From the NCBI GenBank assembly GCA_020346245.1, contig CP070778.1, positions 199,429-233,602 on the forward strand: a DNA stretch of 34,174 nucleotides, written 5' to 3'. The stretch comes from Flavobacteriaceae bacterium (GTDB taxonomy: Bacteria; Bacteroidota; Bacteroidia; Flavobacteriales; Flavobacteriaceae). Shown here one piece after another: positions 947 to 12,316 of the stretch. The position numbers and the translations under genes were made by a program. Positions within the stretch are counted from its first letter, which is position 1; each line of letters begins with the position of its first letter. The notes below the pieces were generated by a model. It was not told where the DNA came from. It did no database searches and worked only from the letters and a program-made list of their open reading frames with translations.

Positions 947-1504
947 CTAACTCTCAGACCAGGATTTACCGCCGTACTTGTTTATCGGAATACATCCTTC
1001 ATAAGTTCCTGGAATAGGATCATGGGCCAATGCTTGGGTAGCCCCTACCTCAGAGGTGAAATAGCCCAATAAGGTCGTGCTCCGCATAATTTGAAAAAAA
1101 GACTCAGAGCTTCCTTGCCCGGCCTTACCGGACAATTCTAGTAAGACCTCGATTCTTTTATCAATGCTTAAATCTGTAAATCCGGTTTCTTGTAGTTCTT
1201 TCAAGCCATCCCGAACTGTCTTTTGTTCGCCTGGGTTAAAATACCCGTCCAACATTTCGTCGATGAAGCGATGCACTAATGCGTCGGATGCTCCAGGCGT
1301 TTCAGTACGCGGAATGAGAATATCAACAATTATTTCTGTTAACATTGCCTCATCCTTGGTCATGAATTTCGGCGACCAATCAAGTTCCTTTGGCGCTTCA
1401 CAGCCACTAAGTACGCCTGTCCAAATTGAAGTAGTCAACACCCCTCCTAGCAATAACGAAGTCCTTTCTAAGGCCTTTCTTCTACTAATTTTATCTGAGC
1501 TCAT
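947..1504 (-). CDS. Gluconate 2-dehydrogenase subunit 3-like protein (Tat signal)
   Basis: This 185-residue protein is the small subunit partner of the GMC oxidoreductase encoded immediately upstream; their reading frames overlap by 4 bases (ATGA), so they are translationally coupled. Residues 5-35 form a twin-arginine signal (SRRKALERT, then a hydrophobic stretch) ending in a lipobox-like LSGC with Cys35. The body (about 50-175) matches the Gluconate_2-dh3 family, for example 'EAMLTEIIVDILIPRTETPGA'. In characterised FAD-dependent gluconate and glucose dehydrogenases the small subunit carries the Tat signal, and the flavoprotein, which lacks one, is exported with it; the same division is seen here. 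Its likely place is the periplasmic face of a membrane. The substrate is not readable. Confidence 0.9.
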   Translation of the reverse strand: MSSDKISRRKALERTSLLLGGVLTTSIWTGVLSGCEAPKELDWSPKFMTKDEAMLTEIIVDILIPRTETPGASDALVHRFIDEMLDGYFNPGEQKTVRDGLKELQETGFTDLSIDKRIEVLLELSGKAGQGSSESFFQIMRSTTLLGYFTSEVGATQALAHDPIPGTYEGCIPINKYGGKSWSES

Positions 1505-3210
1505 AGATTTCCTTTTTTAAGTTGATCTACAGCATAGTCACATGCCCTAGCCGTTAGTGCCATGTAAGTCAGTGAAGGATTCCCCCAACCATTAGAGTTC
1601 ATACATGAGCCATCTGTCACAAAAATGTTCGGGATATCGTGTACTTGATTCCATTTATTGAGCACAGAAGTCTTTGGGTTTTCACCCATTCTCGCCGTAC
1701 CCATTTCGTGTATGCTCAAACCTGGCTCACTTTGATCGTCATAAGTATGGATATCTTTGAATCCGGAAGCATCGAGCATTTCTGCACTGGAAGTCATCAT
1801 TTCCTTTCGCATGACTGATTCATTTTCACCAAATTCCATGTCGGTGACCAACATAGGCAGTCCCCAAGGATCCTTCTTATTGTGGTCTAAATATATTCTG
1901 TTCTTATGATCGGGTAAACATTCGCCAAAGGCCAGAAATGTAAAGGTCCAGGGACCAGGCTTGGTTAAACCATTCTTCCATTCAGCCCCAAAATCATTGC
2001 CTCCAAAGCCTCTATCCCACCCCTCGCGACCTGACCAGCCATAGGTGCTGAATCCTCGTAGATAATCTTTCCTTTTTGTCTTAGCATCAAGGTTTTGAAA
2101 TCTGGGGACCAACACATCTACAGGACGCCTACCTTTGTGATATTGATCCTCAAAACCGTTATAAGTACCATATGCACCTACCTGGAAATGATTGTCCATC
2201 AGATTATGTCCCAACTCTCCACTCGAGTTCGCCAAACCATCTGGGAAACTATTGGCAACTGAATTGAGTAGAATACTGGTACTGCCAAGCGTCGATGCAC
2301 AAAGAAAGATGATTTTAGCATTGTACTCAATAGCCTCTTTTGTCTCGGTATCTACTATTTGTACACCTGAGGCTTTTTTGGTATGATTGTCATACAGGAT
2401 GGTGTGCACAATAGAATTTGGTCGCAATGTCATGTTGCCTGTCTTTTCAGCAGCAATTAGTGTAACCGAATTACTGCTAAAGTATGCACCAAATGGACAA
2501 CCTCTTCGGCATTTGTTACGTGCCATACACATGCCACGACCACCATGAGGCCTAGTGAGATTGACAGTCCTCCCAATCGTCAATTTACGGTTAGTGAAAT
2601 GTTCATCAATTTTGCCTGCTACGTGCTTTTCCAAACAGTTCAATTCCCATGGCGGTAGAAACTTCCCATCGGGTACCTGAGGTAATCCGTCACTTGATCC
2701 ACTCACACCAATGTATGATTCAACATAGTCGTACCAGGGCTCGATATCCTTGTATCTTATTGGCCAATCCAAACCAACGCCATCACGAGCATTAGCACCA
2801 AATTCTAAATCTCCTCTTCGATAAGCCCATCGCCCCCAGATGAGCGACCTTCCGCCAACTTGATATCCTCGGGTCCAAAGAAAAGGTTTCTTTTGCTCAT
2901 ATGGATTTTCATTGTCTTTGACAAAGAAATGTTTCGTTGATTGATCGATAGCATATGATGATCTACTTTGAACAGGGTAATTTTCTCGGCGTTCCTTAGG
3001 CGTCAATCGGTTGCCATAGGGTAATTCCCAAGGGTTTAGATTCATTGTAGGGTAATCCTTAAGATGCTTTACCATTCTTCCCCTTTCCAGTACCAATGTC
3101 TTCAAGCCCTTTTCGGTAAGCTCCTTGGCTGCCCAGCCGCCACTTATACCAGTCCCTACTACGATAGCATCGTATGTGTGCTGTTGCTTTGATTTGGTAT
3201 TTAGGTTCAT
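1501..3210 (-). CDS. GMC family FAD-dependent oxidoreductase
   Basis: This is a 569-residue flavoprotein of the glucose-methanol-choline oxidoreductase family, closest in layout to the catalytic subunit of gluconate/sorbosone-type membrane dehydrogenases. An ADP-binding Rossmann motif GTGISGG lies at residues 19-25, with the acidic ribose-binding Glu in VLERGR. A cysteine cluster, C228-x5-C234-x3-C238 in 'CMARNKCRRGCPFGA', is typical of this subgroup and may hold an electron-transfer site. The GMC C-terminal domain (about 430-565) includes HEMGTARMG and GNPSLT, the latter carrying the active-site Asn region. There is no signal peptide, so export probably relies on the Tat-signal subunit encoded downstream. 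Oxidation of a sugar, polyol or alcohol is expected; the substrate and electron acceptor are unknown, and no cytochrome subunit is adjacent. Confidence 0.92.
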   Translation of the reverse strand: MNLNTKSKQQHTYDAIVVGTGISGGWAAKELTEKGLKTLVLERGRMVKHLKDYPTMNLNPWELPYGNRLTPKERRENYPVQSRSSYAIDQSTKHFFVKDNENPYEQKKPFLWTRGYQVGGRSLIWGRWAYRRGDLEFGANARDGVGLDWPIRYKDIEPWYDYVESYIGVSGSSDGLPQVPDGKFLPPWELNCLEKHVAGKIDEHFTNRKLTIGRTVNLTRPHGGRGMCMARNKCRRGCPFGAYFSSNSVTLIAAEKTGNMTLRPNSIVHTILYDNHTKKASGVQIVDTETKEAIEYNAKIIFLCASTLGSTSILLNSVANSFPDGLANSSGELGHNLMDNHFQVGAYGTYNGFEDQYHKGRRPVDVLVPRFQNLDAKTKRKDYLRGFSTYGWSGREGWDRGFGGNDFGAEWKNGLTKPGPWTFTFLAFGECLPDHKNRIYLDHNKKDPWGLPMLVTDMEFGENESVMRKEMMTSSAEMLDASGFKDIHTYDDQSEPGLSIHEMGTARMGENPKTSVLNKWNQVHDIPNIFVTDGSCMNSNGWGNPSLTYMALTARACDYAVDQLKKGNL

Positions 3211-3765: not shown

Positions 3766-5025
3766 ATGCATTACATCAATGAAAGTCACATACTACTTTT
3801 TCTTTTGCAAATCCTTGTTCTTCTGGGTATTGCCAGAACACTTGGTGTTATCTGCGAAAGCTTTAAAATACCTGCCATCGTTGGTGAAATCCTGGCAGGT
3901 GTCCTATTGGGTCCAACACTTCTTGGACGTGTGGCCCCTTCTTTGCAGCTATGGCTTTTTCCATCAGATGAGATTCAATCCACTATGCTCGAAACAGTTG
4001 CCTGGCTTGGGGTGTTCTTTCTTTTACTCTCTTCAGGGTTTCATGTGGATATCAAAAAAGCAATTCGAAGTGGTCGTGCTGCAATTCTAATAGGTATCGT
4101 TGGTGTTCTGTTTCCTATAGCGATAGGCTTTCCAGTTTTTAGTACTTTGGATTCAATCTATTGGGGAAACGAAGCAAACGTCCTGACATTTGCGCTATTT
4201 TTGTCTGTAGCAGGTTCTATAACGGCAATATCTGTTGTTGCACGTACCCTTAATGATCTTGATATCAGTAAAACCCCAAGAGGATCCCTGGCGCTTTCCT
4301 CATGCGCTATAAACGATATCTTTGGTTGGTTTTTGTTCACTGTAGTTATCTCGTTGGTAACCCCTAACTCCATGAGTATTGCAGAAATAGTGGGTTCAGT
4401 TTTAGGTATCATAACATTTATGGTCCTAAGTTTTGTTTTTGGTTCTAAACTTTTGAGTGCTGCCCTGCGCTATGTAGAATCAACCAAATTGCCACAGCCA
4501 GCAGCATCACAATCCTTAATTGCAAGTTTAGGTTTGCTTTGTGGCGCTATTACACAGTGGTTGGGTATTCATGCTATTCTTGGATTTTTCCTTGCAGGTA
4601 TCATTGCAAGAAGTACAAAAGGCGTTTCAGATGATCTTCGAAAGAGTGTTTCTGATACTTTACATGCCATATTTGTACCGCTCTTCTTTGCCACACTTGG
4701 TCTAAAAATCGATTTCTTAACAGGTATGGTACTATGGCCTACAGTTATCTTTTGTGTCGTTGCAATCCTGGGTAAATTTGGTGGCGCCTGGCTGGGAGCA
4801 AGACTTGGAAAGGAGTCCCAGCAGACATCAATTCTAATAGGTTTTACATTTGTACCCGGAGGTGCTATGGAAATTGTAGTGGCTACTCTTGCCCTTGAAC
4901 TTCAACTTATTGGACATGCAATATTCGTAGCCATTGTATTTGCGGCACTTGCCTCTTCAATATTGGCCGGTCCACTCATTGGGATTCAAAAACGTCGCAT
5001 GGAGATTGGTAAAAGAACAAACTAA
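3766..5025 (+). CDS. Kef-type cation:proton antiporter (CPA2 family)
   Basis: This is a 419-residue integral membrane protein with about 12 hydrophobic segments spanning nearly the whole length. The opening (LGVICESFKIPAIVGEILAGVLLGP) is the hallmark first part of the Na_H_Exchanger domain in the CPA2/KefB-like family. The conserved unwound-helix region 'SCAINDIFGWFLF' carries the ND pair used for cation and proton exchange. The family exchanges Na+ or K+ for H+ across the inner membrane. There is no C-terminal RCK/TrkA-N or TrkA-C regulatory domain and no neighbouring gene encodes one, so it is a stand-alone transport unit. The ion specificity cannot be read from sequence. The start at 3766 places the first hydrophobic helix correctly. 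Confidence 0.92.
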   Translation: MHYINESHILLFLLQILVLLGIARTLGVICESFKIPAIVGEILAGVLLGPTLLGRVAPSLQLWLFPSDEIQSTMLETVAWLGVFFLLLSSGFHVDIKKAIRSGRAAILIGIVGVLFPIAIGFPVFSTLDSIYWGNEANVLTFALFLSVAGSITAISVVARTLNDLDISKTPRGSLALSSCAINDIFGWFLFTVVISLVTPNSMSIAEIVGSVLGIITFMVLSFVFGSKLLSAALRYVESTKLPQPAASQSLIASLGLLCGAITQWLGIHAILGFFLAGIIARSTKGVSDDLRKSVSDTLHAIFVPLFFATLGLKIDFLTGMVLWPTVIFCVVAILGKFGGAWLGARLGKESQQTSILIGFTFVPGGAMEIVVATLALELQLIGHAIFVAIVFAALASSILAGPLIGIQKRRMEIGKRTN

Positions 5026-5182
5026 TAGTTTATTAAGAAATCTAAGTCGTCTGTAACCACTATAATTTCAAGTACATTGAAAATAATTTGCAAGCTTTTT
5101 TTGTTAGTTCATCAAGCATAAGGGATACACTTGTTTGTGTTCTACCACAATAATTTTCGAATGTGAGCAAGTTTTTTGAAGA

Positions 5183-5222
5183 AACAAAAAAACGCCTTAT
5201 CAAGGCAATAAGACGTTTTGTT
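5183..5222. terminator. Bidirectional terminator between convergent genes
   Basis: An imperfect inverted repeat pairs AACAAAAAAACGCCTTAT (5183-5200) with ATAAGACGTTTTGTT (5208-5222) around a short loop. It gives U-rich tails in both directions. It sits between the antiporter gene (plus) and the FKBP gene (minus), so it can end both transcripts. Confidence 0.7.
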
Positions 5223-5242
5223 CTATGCTATGATTGACTTTT

Positions 5243-5671
5243 CTATAGTATTTCAACCAATTCCAGATCAAATACAAGATCCTGGCCCGCTAAGGGATGA
5301 TTGGCATCTATTGTAATATCTTCTGCATCAACTTTTGCAATTCTAAACTGTTGTTGAGATCCATCAGGATTAGAACCAACTAAACCCATACCAACTTCCG
5401 GTTTTATGTCTTCGGGCAGATCCGATTTAGGAACTTTGTGAAATAGTGCCTCATTAACTTCGCCATATGCTTCATGCTTTTCTATTCTGATTGTTTTCTT
5501 CTCATTTACCGCCATATCAATCAAGCCTTTTTCAAAACCAGGAATTAACTGGCCTTTTCCAAGTTCTACTTGCAATGGTTCTCGTTCCAATGAACTATCA
5601 AAAACTTGTCCATCATTTAGTTTCCCGGTATAATGAACTTTTACCACGTCATTTTCTCTTACTTTACTCAT
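5243..5671 (-). CDS. SlyD/SlpA-like FKBP-type peptidyl-prolyl isomerase
   Basis: This 142-residue cytoplasmic protein catalyses cis-trans isomerisation of prolyl bonds and acts as a folding helper. The FKBP core opens with VKVHYTGKLNDGQVFDSS and continues with GKGQLIPGFEKGLIDM. An insert-in-flap domain (about residues 70-125, 'HEAYGEVNEALFHKVPKSDLP...') interrupts the fold as in SlyD and SlpA; this domain gives chaperone activity in characterised members. The C-terminus ends at DLELVEIL with no His/Cys-rich metal tail, so it is nearer SlpA or tail-less SlyD. There is no signal peptide. It is monocistronic, with a good promoter 31 bases upstream of the start and a shared terminator downstream. 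Confidence 0.93.
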   Translation of the reverse strand: MSKVRENDVVKVHYTGKLNDGQVFDSSLEREPLQVELGKGQLIPGFEKGLIDMAVNEKKTIRIEKHEAYGEVNEALFHKVPKSDLPEDIKPEVGMGLVGSNPDGSQQQFRIAKVDAEDITIDANHPLAGQDLVFDLELVEIL

Positions 5672-5788: not shown

Positions 5789-6844
5789 TTATTTGCTACC
5801 TCTTTTCTTATATAAAGAAGGTGTTATGCCTTCAAATTTTTTGAAAGCACTATTAAAAGAAGATAAGGTGCTAAAACCCGCATCAAAAGCTATTGTAGAA
5901 ATTGTATAGTTTTTGGTATTTGCATCCAACAGCATTCCTTTTGCGTCTTGTATTCGATAATAATTTATAAAATCGTTAAAGTTTCGTTTAGCGTACTGAT
6001 TAATAGCTTCTGAGGTGTTTTGAGTACTCTTCCCCACCATCTTGCTTAAACTTGATAGCGATAAATCAGACTCAAGATATAGCTTGTCTTTGATGACCAA
6101 TTCAGATATCTTGTTATATAACCATTCTTTATCATTTTTCTTAAACACATTTCCATCAATTTCTGTCGTTTTTAAATGAAGTGCCTTATAAGTCAAAAAA
6201 TAGATGACGACAGAGTAGACAATTGGCCCCACAATATAAGGCACGGTGTCCTCAATAATATTTAAAAAGTAGGAAATCCAAATAACGATAAAACCAAAAA
6301 TTAATACTTGCAACCATTCAAAAATTGCTTTTTGAGATTTTGTTTGCAATACGTTCCTGTATGCTCCTTTTACTTTTTGCAATAACCTGCCCGAAAGAAA
6401 AATATAAAATGCAAAATGCAGGTAAATAAAAATAAGAGCACTGGCAAAAACTATAACTACTTCCCTATTATGGGTCTCAAACCACTTCCTGGATACGAAA
6501 AAGCTCATCACAAAGATCGTTGTAAAAGGAACAAACTCTAACAGGTTATTCTTTGAAAATTCAAAATTGTAGCGAGTCATTGCTAAAACATACCATCTTA
6601 ACAGCGGGCCAATGAGTAACAAAAAAGCCAATCCGGCAAAAATAAATATTGGTTCCAGATCATTCCCGAAATACAACATTACCGACTTACCAATCCTGAA
6701 AGCCATAAAAATGAGCATTAACCCCAGCAATAAATTTGGAAATGTTCTCTTCTTCTTGAGAAAGCATAAGTAAACAGCAAATAACACCCCGTGCAAAAGT
6801 CCTGCAGTACTAATGATTATGAGAAGAATATCGGAAAAACTCAA
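5789..6844 (-). CDS. Membrane-spanning AraC-family regulator
   Basis: This 351-residue protein has about seven hydrophobic helices in residues 1-225, then a cytoplasmic AraC-type DNA-binding domain (about 240-350). The second helix-turn-helix is clear: 'ISTIAFDAGFSTLSSFNSAFKKFEGITPSLYKKR'. Regulators with an N-terminal multi-helix sensor and HTH_18 are common in Bacteroidota and are thought to sense a membrane or periplasmic signal; the ligand is unknown here. The gene follows a membrane-anchored DJ-1/PfpI gene with 38 bases between, so the two are probably co-transcribed. The start codon ATG at 6844 is directly before the first helix. Confidence 0.9.
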   Translation of the reverse strand: MSFSDILLIIISTAGLLHGVLFAVYLCFLKKKRTFPNLLLGLMLIFMAFRIGKSVMLYFGNDLEPIFIFAGLAFLLLIGPLLRWYVLAMTRYNFEFSKNNLLEFVPFTTIFVMSFFVSRKWFETHNREVVIVFASALIFIYLHFAFYIFLSGRLLQKVKGAYRNVLQTKSQKAIFEWLQVLIFGFIVIWISYFLNIIEDTVPYIVGPIVYSVVIYFLTYKALHLKTTEIDGNVFKKNDKEWLYNKISELVIKDKLYLESDLSLSSLSKMVGKSTQNTSEAINQYAKRNFNDFINYYRIQDAKGMLLDANTKNYTISTIAFDAGFSTLSSFNSAFKKFEGITPSLYKKRGSK

Positions 6845-6882
6845 TAAAATATTTTTATCAAATTTAAGTATATTTTATCCAA

Positions 6883-7974
6883 CTAGGAGTCATATTTTTT
6901 CGCATATGAAACCAAACCAATAATATCAAAAAAACGCCCAACATCACCTTTCATGGCAGCCACAATACTATGCATTGCGATAAGAACTCTGTTGATGGGT
7001 TTCTTTTCTACCACAGACATTCTGTTAATCATTTCTTTAGCTTTTTGCGACCCATTGTTTTCATATGTTGCCAATACCCTTAAAGCATTTTCTTCATCGG
7101 TAATTTCCCGGTATTTAGGTTTGTATCCCAACTGCTTAATCATAGTTTCCGCCAAAATCCATGTAGACCAGGGGTTTTGACCGGTAATTAAATTATCATC
7201 GTGACTAATAGTTTCTAAATACATTGACCCTTCATTGAAAATAGCGCCTTGCGCAACCAACTTATCCTGCAAAAGAAAAGGGAAAATAGCTTTCGCATCT
7301 GATATAAGAAGCAACTCTTCTTTATTTGTAAAGCCACTCACCCTTTTATTTTCTAAAAGCGATTGCCCATTATCTAAAGTAACATTAACCAATGCGGCAG
7401 GACCGTGACATACAGCGCCCACAACCTTGTTGGATTGATAATACTCACGTATAATAGATTGGATAGCCTTATTATCTGGGAAATCAAACATAGCCCCTTT
7501 TCCGCCCGCAAAAAACACAGCTTCATAGTCTTTGGCAACTACATCTTTTACCGGAATTGTATTACTTGTTTTATATTGTGCTACGGAGTCATTTAAAAAA
7601 GCAAAGTCATAAGCACCCATATCATCATCATCAATAACAACCGGTGGCTTCCCTCCTAGCGGACTGGCAATATCTACTTCAAAACCATTCGCTTTAAATA
7701 CATAATAGGCCCGTGCCAATTCTGTTAATTCATAACCAGTGCTTTTTCCGCTGTCTCCCATCGTATTCATACTTGTGACTATGGCTAAAATTTTACCCCG
7801 AGGAGGTTGAATGTTTTTTGCCAAATAAGGTAAATCCTTAACTTGAGTAGTTTCAAGTGTTGTATTCTTGGGTGGTATTAGACTCTTAAACCATAGTCCG
7901 AAAGAAAAGATTATGGCAATTATACTAAGTAAAGTAATTCCTGTCCATTTAAGGATGCGATATTTTTTAAACAT
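6883..7974 (-). CDS. Membrane-anchored DJ-1/PfpI family protein
   Basis: This 363-residue protein has a single N-terminal membrane helix (about residues 11-30) and then a class I glutamine-amidotransferase-like DJ-1/PfpI domain (about 60-290). The nucleophile elbow is GAVCHGPAALV with Cys189-His190, and a conserved Glu candidate (Glu82) is in TGYELTELA, as in Hsp31/HchA-type members. Family members act as glyoxalases, chaperones or hydrolases; the exact activity is not shown by sequence. A C-terminal extension of about 70 residues (290-363) is not part of the core fold. If the helix is a signal anchor, the domain faces the periplasm, which is unusual for glyoxalase-type members. It is first gene of a probable pair with the AraC regulator. 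Confidence 0.85.
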   Translation of the reverse strand: MFKKYRILKWTGITLLSIIAIIFSFGLWFKSLIPPKNTTLETTQVKDLPYLAKNIQPPRGKILAIVTSMNTMGDSGKSTGYELTELARAYYVFKANGFEVDIASPLGGKPPVVIDDDDMGAYDFAFLNDSVAQYKTSNTIPVKDVVAKDYEAVFFAGGKGAMFDFPDNKAIQSIIREYYQSNKVVGAVCHGPAALVNVTLDNGQSLLENKRVSGFTNKEELLLISDAKAIFPFLLQDKLVAQGAIFNEGSMYLETISHDDNLITGQNPWSTWILAETMIKQLGYKPKYREITDEENALRVLATYENNGSQKAKEMINRMSVVEKKPINRVLIAMHSIVAAMKGDVGRFFDIIGLVSYAKKYDS

Positions 7975-10038: not shown

Positions 10039-10428
10039 TTAAGAAGAAATAATAGCATCTACTTCTATTTCAATTAACCAATCTGGATTAATAAAACGAG
10101 ATACTTGCATGATTGTATCAACAGGCTTTATAGTTTTAAAATAAGACGCTCTTACTTTTGCAGCAGCTTTCCAATCTTCTATATTAGTTAATAATATTCG
10201 TGTTCTAACGACGTCGTTTAAGCTTGAACCTGCTTTTTCTAATGCCATTTTAATAGTTTCCAGGCATTGTTTGGTTTGCAAAGAAATATCTCCAACACCT
10301 ACTGTATTTCCATCTGCATCCATTGGTGCAGTTCCACCAATTGTTATATATGGTCCAACACGAACGGCACGACTGAAGCCAATAACTTCTTCATATGGAC
10401 TTCCTCCAGATATTAGTTCTCTTTTCAT
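10039..10428 (-). CDS. RidA/YjgF/UK114 family protein
   Basis: This is a RidA-superfamily protein of 129 residues. I chose ATG 10428 because it gives the usual family length and leaves 7 bases after the upstream lipoprotein gene; a start at 10494 would add 22 residues unlike the family and overlap that gene by 59 bases. The family core is present: GFSRAVRVGPYITIGGTAP, then the region QTKQCLETIKMALEKAGSSLNDVVRTRILLTNI, and a C-terminal LIEIEVDAI. The Arg in 'VVRTRILL' matches the substrate-carboxylate Arg of RidA enzymes that deaminate enamines and imines. There is no signal peptide, so it is cytoplasmic. It is the last gene of a MarR-cupin-lipoprotein-RidA operon. The precise subfamily is not clear. 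Confidence 0.9.
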   Translation of the reverse strand: MKRELISGGSPYEEVIGFSRAVRVGPYITIGGTAPMDADGNTVGVGDISLQTKQCLETIKMALEKAGSSLNDVVRTRILLTNIEDWKAAAKVRASYFKTIKPVDTIMQVSRFINPDWLIEIEVDAIISS

Positions 10429-10435
10429 AAATAAT

Positions 10436-10984
10436 TCAATTGTCTTTGTTAGTAATTTCTCGTCTTGAAAGCTCATATCTAGTTTCGAAAGCAAGAGAAT
10501 CTCCTTTAAACATATCCATCCAAATTAGGACTTTATCATTTTTCTTCTTAAAATGTACACCATGCATGTGTAATTCTTTGTGAGATTTTGTATTTCCAAC
10601 CTTACCATTACATAAAAAATGCAAATCACCATCTACATCTGAATTTACAGCAATTAATATTGGTTGATTTTGTAACTGACAAAAGTGGTTTCCATAAAGA
10701 ATTCCATTATCAATATTATAAATGGTAAGCATCTCTGTGGTAGTACCAAGTTTTAACCGTTCAATAATAACATTCTCTCTAGAAGTTGCTTCAATTTCCC
10801 AACCGAAACTTCCATCTATCGTATCTTGAACTTTCCATTTACCTTGAAGGTTTTTGAGATAATTTAAAGCTGAATTTGGATCAGAAATTACATCTAGTTT
10901 TTGATGTTGTTGTTCTTCTTCATTACATGCAATTAAACAACTAAGTAATAAACTCAATACTAAATATTTAATCTTTAATTCCAT
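10436..10984 (-). CDS. Lipoprotein of unknown function
   Basis: This 182-residue protein has a clear lipoprotein signal ending LSCLIAC with Cys20, followed by a Glu/Gln-rich linker. The mature domain reads as a small beta-rich fold: LQGKWKVQDTIDGSFGWEIEA, then alternating strands with 'GILYGNHFCQLQNQP', 'HLHMHGVHF' -type His content and 'KVLIWMDMF'. The opening resembles lipocalin-like 'LxGxW' domains that probe the quality of a substrate (DUF1579-like), but I cannot name a family. It lies third in the MarR operon, 39 bases after the cupin gene and 7 before RidA, so a role next to the exported cupin is plausible. Confidence 0.75.
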   Translation of the reverse strand: MELKIKYLVLSLLLSCLIACNEEEQQHQKLDVISDPNSALNYLKNLQGKWKVQDTIDGSFGWEIEATSRENVIIERLKLGTTTEMLTIYNIDNGILYGNHFCQLQNQPILIAVNSDVDGDLHFLCNGKVGNTKSHKELHMHGVHFKKKNDKVLIWMDMFKGDSLAFETRYELSRREITNKDN

Positions 10985-11023
10985 TAAAATAATATTTATT
11001 GATTTTTGCAGATATATTCTATT

Positions 11024-11761
11024 TTAATGATTTTTCATTCTACTCATTTGCTCATTAGCCTTTTTAAAAATATTACGTATAACTTCTCCATTAGAAGGTT
11101 CTTCAATAAGTGTATCTGGATCCCATTGGCTACGTTCAGTATTAAAGAAGTCACCACCGTAAATATGAAGTCCTCCAGTAAATCTCGGAAGTGGATTTGT
11201 TACAGAATGAATGGCGTTTGTTTTTAGCATAGCAACATCTCCCGCAAATAAACATCGAACATCATGTGCTTCTAAACTTTCCTTGTTTCGTTTCCATATA
11301 ATATTGTCTTCTCTTCCAGTATATAGCCCAATATTTGCCCACATATGATGGTTATGTGGCATGAGATTCATCTGAGGTGTCCATGAAGCTGCGAAAATGG
11401 TTAAGTCTTTTGAGCGTAAAAAGACCTTCAACCCTGCTTCTTTCGGTTCACCAATTGCTTTAAGCATTGCTTTTGGATTTGAAACACCTTTGGCTAAAAC
11501 TTCTTTCACTGCTTCCTGAGGATTAGAATCTTTATTTGCAGCAATACAGTCTTCAATAAATTTTTGCATTTCTGTTAATTCACGTTCAGTAACAGGAATA
11601 ATTTCTTCTCCATGATCTAAAGCATCTATGGAAACTTCTGTCATTGCAGAAGACATAAAGGCTGGAATTGCTGCTAAACTTAAACCCAATCCTAAAGTTC
11701 TAATCATACCTCTCCTTGTAAGCTCTAGATTTTTTTGTTCTGTGTTGTTTTGAGTCTTCAT
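11024..11761 (-). CDS. Tat-exported cysteine-dioxygenase-like cupin
   Basis: This 245-residue protein has an N-terminal twin-arginine signal (Arg16-Arg17, then GMIRTLGLGLSLAAIPAFMSSA) and a double-stranded beta-helix domain (about 90-230) related to the cysteine dioxygenase-like COG5553 group. The metal-site pattern is visible: 'MPHNHHMWANIGLYTGREDN' gives His136 and His138 (HxH), and later 'AIHSV' and 'GGLHIYGG' give His185 and His199; thiol dioxygenases use a three-His Fe(II) site. The substrate could be a thiol, but sequence alone does not decide it. Its reading frame overlaps the MarR gene by 4 bases (ATGA). An exported member of this fold is unusual, as characterised thiol dioxygenases are cytoplasmic. 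Confidence 0.78.
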   Translation of the reverse strand: MKTQNNTEQKNLELTRRGMIRTLGLGLSLAAIPAFMSSAMTEVSIDALDHGEEIIPVTERELTEMQKFIEDCIAANKDSNPQEAVKEVLAKGVSNPKAMLKAIGEPKEAGLKVFLRSKDLTIFAASWTPQMNLMPHNHHMWANIGLYTGREDNIIWKRNKESLEAHDVRCLFAGDVAMLKTNAIHSVTNPLPRFTGGLHIYGGDFFNTERSQWDPDTLIEEPSNGEVIRNIFKKANEQMSRMKNH

Positions 11762-12249
11762 CTTTTTTGTTTTTTGTATTCGTAGTAAAAGCGTTCGTTA
11801 AATGGAATAGATTTTAACGATGCTTCAATTTCATCTAGCTGCTTAAGTATAGATAAATCTTCTTTTAGCATTTTATAAATAGCATCCTCGCAACTGTTCC
11901 ATATTTGTTCTAAATCTGGAAGTAGGTCAAGTGATTTCTGAGTTAATTTTATATTTTGCTTTCTTTTATCATAAGAATCCTTTTCTGATATTATATAACC
12001 TTTAGATGTCATTTTCTTGAGCATAACCACCATTGAAGGATGTGTATATCCTAACTGTTCAGCAATTTGGACCATTGTAAGCATGTCATTTTCTCTTAAT
12101 AACTTAAATACTAAATGCCAACTAGGTTCAACATCTATATCGATTTCCTTAAAGAATTTTCTCGTATCATGAGACATCCTGTCACTTATACGCTTTAATC
12201 TATTATCCAAAGCTTTGTATCCAAGTTCTTTAATAAAATCCCTTTCCAT
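11758..12249 (-). CDS. MarR-family transcriptional regulator
   Basis: This 163-residue protein has the MarR winged-helix domain (about 40-110). The recognition part is 'LTMVQIAEQLGYTHPSMVVMLKKMTSKGYI', and the wing carries the conserved Asp-Arg-like region 'SEKDSYDKRKQNIKLTQKS'. Long helices at both ends form the dimer interface in this family. It opens the operon with the cupin, lipoprotein and RidA genes and overlaps the cupin by 4 bases. Its promoter contains a 10-bp perfect palindrome between the -7 element and the -33 position, fitting autorepression lifted by a small ligand. The ligand is unknown. Confidence 0.9.
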   Translation of the reverse strand: MERDFIKELGYKALDNRLKRISDRMSHDTRKFFKEIDIDVEPSWHLVFKLLRENDMLTMVQIAEQLGYTHPSMVVMLKKMTSKGYIISEKDSYDKRKQNIKLTQKSLDLLPDLEQIWNSCEDAIYKMLKEDLSILKQLDEIEASLKSIPFNERFYYEYKKQKR

Positions 12250-12266: not shown

Positions 12267-12274
12267 CAAAGATA
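12267..12274 (-). promoter_or_regulatory. -7 element TATCTTTG for the MarR operon
   Basis: The minus strand reads TATCTTTG, a perfect TAnnTTTG match, 17 bases before the MarR start codon. No clean TTTG lies at the -33 position. Confidence 0.65.
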
Positions 12275-12286
12275 GTAAAATATAGT

Positions 12287-12296
12287 TAGTTAACTA
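12287..12296. promoter_or_regulatory. Palindromic operator candidate for MarR
   Basis: TAGTTAACTA is a perfect 10-bp palindrome, with further symmetric bases two positions out on each side after a two-base mismatch. It begins 13 bases upstream of the -7 element of the MarR promoter, where a bound dimer would block RNA polymerase. Function is inferred. Confidence 0.5.
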
Positions 12297-12316
12297 CATA
12301 GTTGATTAAATATATT

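Follow-up and report, generated by a model that had tools for sequence, protein, structure and literature searches.

A rare MarR-cupin-Rid gene cassette of Bacteroidota with a putatively exported cupin of predicted thiol-dioxygenase fold

Genes and control elements at the locus

The window analysed in this work is a stretch of 34,174 nucleotides from a Flavobacteriaceae bacterium (GenBank assembly GCA_020346245.1, contig CP070778.1, positions 199,429 to 233,602), whose genome comprises 3.05 Mb in a single contig with completeness given as 81%. We describe a group of four genes in it, all on the minus strand, which encode a MarR-family regulator (11758..12249), a cupin with the N-terminal twin-arginine signal TRRGMIRTLGLGL (11024..11761), a small lipoprotein (10436..10984) and a Rid-family protein in which no signal peptide is seen (10039..10428). 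The initial annotation described these genes as tightly packed, and the coordinates confirm it: the MarR gene (12249-11758) and the cupin gene (11761-11024) overlap by 4 bases, and gaps of 39 and 7 bases separate the cupin from the lipoprotein and the lipoprotein from Rid. The last value assumes that Rid begins at ATG 10428, a start that is backed by relatives beginning MKR...; the longer start offered by the open reading frame tool, TTG 10494, has no support from relatives and was rejected. The regulator was correctly named as MarR, since it passes the Pfam cut-off for PF12802 (38.5 versus 27 bits) and is also above that for PF01047; its PDB matches are MepR and SlyA. Ahead of the MarR gene lie a palindrome, GTTAACTACATAGTTGAT on the plus strand (12289..12306, without orientation), and, on the minus strand, TATCTTTG (12267..12274), an instance of the TAnnTTTG box, the -7 promoter element of Bacteroidota.

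Conservation of the cassette

Relatives of the cupin were collected by a pattern scan of 84,980 species genomes, which finds close relatives and returned 21 loci, and from a sample of 397 Flavobacteriaceae genomes, which gave 11 cupin matches including that of the window. Before counting, we removed five loci (L025, L026, L028, L029 and L031) that are contained letter for letter within others (L002, L005, L007, L008 and L009, respectively); in particular L026, which comes from the genus-mate genome G304, is wholly contained in L005 (Eudoraea adriatica), which places the host of the window in Eudoraea or close to it. A distant match, L032 (28% identity, E 9e-4), was excluded from the cassette counts. 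All counts for Bacteroidota below therefore refer to 15 distinct loci, the window included; a recount bore out both the duplicates and the residue counts given below.

In 14 of the 15 loci, L030 being the exception, the MarR gene immediately precedes that of the cupin. Rid follows the cupin directly, or one gene further in the window and L004, in 13 loci; the exceptions are L006, where a search covering the locus found no Rid, and L030. The same MarR-cupin-Rid order is thus seen in 13/15 distinct loci. This linkage exceeds chance, and that of the lipoprotein, which is present in the cassette of the window only (1/15), does not. The neighbourhood survey proposed in the initial annotation accordingly bears out MarR and Rid as linked genes in other species and fails to bear out the lipoprotein. 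Since the lipoprotein is confined to the window and a SnoaL-like gene (PF13474) occupies the same slot in L004, what is conserved is a unit of MarR, cupin and Rid that leaves the slot ahead of Rid open.

The lipoprotein was accordingly rejected as a part of the system. Among nine other genus members searched, one carries a relative of 46% identity, and it lies outside any cassette. The single-sequence model of the lipoprotein (predicted local distance difference test score, pLDDT, 43.7) is too poor for a fold to be named, and its weak Pfam match, GATase_7, is below the cut-off (20.2 versus 25 bits). The relative, at L034:314-2052, adjoins the gene of a DJ-1/AraC-type regulator (PF01965, PF12833).

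In L030 (534-2226) the twin-arginine cupin is preceded by a LysR gene (PF00126/PF03466) and has no Rid partner, which indicates that the cupin can also occur singly, with a different regulator; the genome of this locus, G115, has no Rid match at E 1e-25. In L008 (Robertkochia), the Rid gene (6734-7117) is broken by an in-frame TAG, which is seen again in a second genome collection (L059). Pairwise distances among the three proteins are modestly congruent (r 0.65, 0.42 and 0.52 for 12 of the 15 loci), and the near-identical pair L009/L010 is taken to carry part of this congruence. The flanking genes vary by locus: under a crude clustering, the Bacteroidota loci share, apart from the three cassette genes, at most one cluster, permease-like and present in two. 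An alcohol dehydrogenase adjoining the cassette was considered as a member of the unit and rejected: 7 of 10 genus members keep it, and its flanks vary among them.

The putative operator and MarR regulation

A palindrome is present upstream of MarR in all 14 MarR-bearing loci, its fullest form being AGTYAACTAYRTAGTTRACT, and its centre lies 46-51 bases before the MarR ATG. Relative to an 18-base consensus, seven loci have no mismatch, four have one and one has two; L008 has three, and L004, where the right half alone is intact, has four. Because this consensus was derived from the same 14 sequences that were scored, a resampling control is needed: upstream regions were resampled to first order in 200 rounds of 14 each, and one mismatch or fewer was reached in no round, three or fewer in 1.8%. 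The TAnnTTTG box is perfect in nine of the 14 loci and has one mismatch in five, and it lies 12-15 bases past the palindrome in 12; in L008 and L023 the script took an earlier tie for the box, and TATCTTTA is visible further along the sequence. This pairing of a putative palindromic operator with a TAnnTTTG box upstream of MarR is new in this analysis.

The protein thus has both a MarR domain and a putative operator at its own promoter. In the 3.05 Mb genome sequence of the window (completeness given as 81%) there is one perfect operator site and, among the sites listed, none with one mismatch and five with two. When three mismatches are allowed, a reversed control pattern gives 93 matches per strand versus 55 for the operator. 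Since the other sites do not exceed this control, a wider MarR regulon was rejected and we claim no second target. The conserved palindrome at its own promoter and the single perfect genomic site make MarR a probable autorepressor, and the simplest reading is that it represses its own cassette alone.

The cupin: fold and active-site residues

The cupin has no match to Pfam or NCBIfam at E 1 or better. Its own sequence nevertheless finds thiol dioxygenases in the PDB (E 4e-4 with the single sequence), and a profile search gives mercaptosuccinate dioxygenase (MSDO, 8vni) as the best match (E 5.9e-7) with the common motif PHNHxxWAxI...GxExN. The AlphaFold model (pLDDT 80.2) matches known structures in Foldseek at E 1.6e-11. 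We also compared it by VIA, which re-examines the matches returned by Foldseek and covers the fold families in that list: rows 1-20 have Z 15.0-16.9, with a root-mean-square deviation (rmsd) of 2.0-3.0 over 144-165 aligned residues, which places the model in the fold of cysteine dioxygenase (CDO). The highest values are 16.9 to 4qma (rmsd 2.0, 159 aligned), 16.6 to the Pseudomonas thiol dioxygenase 4tlf_A, 16.3 to the 3-mercaptopropionate dioxygenase (3MDO) 6xb9 and 16.0 to 8vni; rat CDO follows at about 15, and ADO, PCO and ergothioneine dioxygenase at 11.9-13.5.

The residues point in the same direction. H136, H138 and H185, which form a predicted three-histidine metal site, are invariant in all 27 aligned proteins, as are H199 and Y201. 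The last two align with H157 and Y159 of 3MDO, and when the alignment is continued without gaps R210 pairs with Arg168 of the enzyme Av3MDO; this position is Arg in 24 of 26 relatives, not counting the distant L032, which has Lys. PMC8050391 reports that Arg168 contacts a substrate analogue ionically, through its carboxylate.

By predicted fold and by these residues, the cupin would work as a 3MDO/MSDO-type enzyme. We do not file it as CDO because the tests specific to CDO failed (see below). The original description of a cysteine-dioxygenase-like cupin is upheld for the predicted fold and metal ligands.

The cupin: export signal and proteobacterial relatives

The twin-arginine signal noted in the initial annotation is borne out, being present in all 15 cassette-type Bacteroidota cupins (L032 uncounted), and the host has TatC (224.4 bits). 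The cupin is a predicted export substrate of the twin-arginine translocation (Tat) pathway.

More distant homologs were found at 11 proteobacterial loci. In the aligned rows these proteins start at or near the fold, the starts being chosen by us; the open frame extends further upstream of the chosen start in L013, L015 and L017, and L022 is cut at a stop codon. Near the proteobacterial genes we found an amidohydrolase (PF04909) in three loci (L014, L018 and L019) and a GMC oxidoreductase (PF00732) in two (L017 and L020).

The Rid protein

The Rid protein matches PF01042 with 91.1 bits (gathering cut-off 27.3), and its nearest solved PDB chain is 3i7t. It is below the RidA-type cut-off of NCBIfam (TIGR00004, 67.3 versus 106.25 bits) and also under the RidA/RutC models. 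The arginine of imine hydrolysis (Arg105 of TdcF) is variable among 13 cassette Rids, 12 read by alignment and that of L008 directly: it is R in eight, including the window, H in two, G in two and C in one. In the alignment Glu is kept in 12/12 and Phe stands in place of Tyr17 in 12/12.

According to PMC4433059, a variable arginine is typical of Rid5 and Rid6, and Rid4-7 are most likely not imine hydrolases. On the variable-arginine criterion, the cassette protein is tentatively filed as Rid6-like. If the arginine is needed, its loss in 5/13 means that imine hydrolysis is not the conserved role. The genome of the window contains three further Rid-family matches, so that the cassette protein need not be the one that supplies housekeeping Rid functions.

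Distribution and mobility

The cassette is rare. Leaving aside the weak L032, the cupin is present in 10/397 Flavobacteriaceae genomes and in two of ten genomes of the genus of the window. A phylum sample yields the window's own cupin only (1/395), and an order sample of 395 yields two strong matches, that of the window and one relative, besides three weak ones of 26-27%. The plasmid search gave a single weak match (30%, Pseudomonas). Rid of at least 71% identity is found in 11/397 genomes, nine of which also have the cupin; conversely, nine of the ten cupin genomes carry such a Rid and one lacks it.

Two of those 11 genomes, G148 and G155, have Rid without the cupin. At the cupin-free locus L054 (7-1890), a cassette-type Rid (84%) lies 38 bases after an alpha/beta hydrolase gene, which itself follows a SCO1-like gene and whose product has a signal peptide by eye. 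At L060 (4-1893), likewise without the cupin, a cassette-type Rid (71%) adjoins a small Pfam-less protein and a YheO-like PAS protein that has an N-terminal membrane segment by eye.

Some loci bear on the mobility of the cassette. In L004 (3895-5321), a tRNA-Leu gene (3895-3977, minus strand) adjoins a phage-type tyrosine integrase gene (4050-5321, plus strand), 145 bases after which the MarR-cupin-SnoaL-Rid cassette begins; the combination suggests an integrative element. Between L009 (Tamlana) and L010 (a metagenome-assembled genome labelled Cytophagales), each of the three proteins differs by just 4-6%, as either a recent transfer or a misplaced contig would produce. Together with the patchy distribution, these loci speak for a cassette that moves horizontally.

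Elsewhere in the window (947-3210), a GMC oxidoreductase (PF00732/PF05199) adjoins a gluconate 2-dehydrogenase subunit 3-like protein (PF13618) whose twin-arginine-like start, SRRKALERTS, marks it as a second likely Tat substrate.

Interpretation and alternatives

The reading that we favour, with confidence evenly balanced against doubt, is that of a rare, horizontally moving, inducible MarR-cupin-Rid cassette whose exported cupin oxidises a thiol-carboxylate outside the cytoplasm. MarR would occupy its single operator and block transcription until released by a ligand, either a thiol or the product formed from it. The cupin would fold with iron in the cytoplasm, exit through Tat and add O2 outside the cytoplasm to a carboxylate-bearing thiol of the 3-mercaptopropionate or mercaptosuccinate type, a substrate class suggested by R210 standing in place of Arg168 of 3MDO. 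The product would be a sulfinate; mercaptosuccinate-like substrates would instead yield an organic acid and sulfite. The cytoplasmic target of the Rid6-like protein may be an imported metabolite or a related one, and the lipoprotein would be a chance arrival in the operon.

Several observations weigh against this reading. None of the 20 cupin family members scanned matches CDO_I (PF05995); the sole match at E 0.1 or better in that scan is one unrelated, chance-level match. The Ser of the Ser-His-Tyr motif is replaced by Gly (15/15) or Ala (11/11), with His and Tyr kept in 27/27; the position matching the Arg of Bacillus subtilis CDO (3eqe), presumably Arg60, is Leu, Met or Ile (25 rows, L032 aside); and L009 and L010 have Phe at the R210 position. 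In place of the HDH metal motif of 6xb9 and 3eqe the cupin has HNH, as does 8vni. The Tat cleavage sites, judged by eye, are uneven among the cupins. The 11 proteobacterial relatives (41-47% identity) have no MarR or Rid and apparently no signal, so that function may have shifted. Among the few neighbours scanned, none was recognised that names a sulfur pathway. As regards the Ser, PMC8050391 describes the Ser-His-Tyr motif as helping activity and not being required.

In an alternative that we consider unlikely on balance, the substrate is not a thiol: the cupin, its thiol-dioxygenase fold retained, would cleave C-C or C-S bonds like dimethylsulfoniopropionate (DMSP) lyases and diketone dioxygenases, and the cassette would serve as a small unit for the catabolism or detoxification of a different marine metabolite. 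The failed CDO_I match, the incomplete Ser-His-Tyr motif and the missing CDO-type Arg agree with it, as do the proteobacterial neighbours described above, amidohydrolase and GMC oxidoreductase rather than sulfur genes, and the DMSP lyase 4b29 is among the Foldseek matches at rank 46. However, rows 1-44 of the Foldseek list and the 50 rows listed by VIA are all thiol-type dioxygenases (for cysteine, mercapto-acids, N-terminal cysteine, cysteamine and ergothioneine) or putative CDOs, and R210 and the PHNHxxWA motif indicate 3MDO/MSDO.

In the initial annotation, a thiol- or amine-containing compound was oxidised outside the cytoplasm and RidA cleared a reactive imine or enamine inside. The outer half of this proposal is largely retained here, being supported by the predicted fold, the metal ligands, the Tat signal and the linkage of MarR, cupin and Rid; the lipoprotein drops out, and imine clearance is weakened. 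The linkage of Rid to the cupin and the arginine in the window's copy are compatible with such clearance, and the Rid of L060 adjoins a YheO-like PAS sensor, a partner type in D-amino-acid/imine systems. Yet the essential arginine is lost in 5/13 cassette Rids, the RidA/RutC cut-offs are missed, Rid occurs without the cupin in 2/11 genomes, the cassette has no amine-forming enzyme, and cupin and Rid apparently work in different compartments, all of which makes this version improbable. Finally, oxidation by the exported cupin of N-terminal cysteines of exported proteins or lipoproteins in the manner of the eukaryotic ADO and PCO, or a role as sensor, would fit the shared fold (Z 12.6-13.5) but is highly improbable, given that ADO and PCO score lower than the small-molecule enzymes by about 3 Z units and that R210, as the equivalent of Arg168, implies a small substrate with a carboxylate.

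Returning to an exported thiol-carboxylate dioxygenase, the cassette might represent the first thiol dioxygenase pathway located outside the cytoplasm. This mobile unit under MarR control would oxidise 3-mercaptopropionate and similar thiol-carboxylates in the periplasm of marine Bacteroidota, and a Rid6-type protein would usually accompany it in the cytoplasm. We put this fuller proposal forward tentatively, with more doubt than belief. 3-Mercaptopropionate occurs in coastal sediments. If the proposal is true, organic-sulfur oxidation would be placed in the periplasm of marine Bacteroidota, and the orphan Rid6 group would gain its first metabolic context, including a partner protein as well as a regulator and an operator to guide the search for the substrate.

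Comparison with known systems

In the open-access literature searched, which lacks most subscription journals, we found no exported thiol dioxygenase, no pair of thiol dioxygenase and Rid, and no RidA-cupin-MarR operon. The mercaptosuccinate dioxygenase of Variovorax and Advenella (Msdo, 8vni) is like the cupin in fold (Z 16.0), as the best profile match (E 5.9e-7) and in the PHNHxxWAxI motif, and in the alignment it too lacks the Ser of SHY; identity over the aligned part is only 20%. According to PMC5373536, in which MarR is not mentioned, Msdo is under a LysR regulator and clustered with rhodanese and cystathionine beta-lyase, whereas the cupin described here has MarR, Rid and a Tat signal; the relative in L030 does have LysR upstream.

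3-Mercaptopropionate dioxygenase (6xb9, 4tlf) shares with the cupin the fold (Z 16.3-16.6), the three His and the equivalents of His157/Tyr159 and Arg168. Unlike it, the cupin has Gly or Ala for Ser155, does not match CDO_I, is exported to judge from its sequence and is linked to MarR and Rid. Cysteine dioxygenase (rat CDO; YubC of B. subtilis, 3eqe/4qm9) resembles the cupin in fold (Z about 15-15.6) and metal site, but the cupin has Leu, Met or Ile at the Arg60 position and no CDO_I match. The cassette Rids, for their part, are like Rid6 and Rid5 in belonging to PF01042 and in the variable arginine position; they differ in that most of them (8/13) retain the arginine and in that they are linked to a cupin with an export signal.

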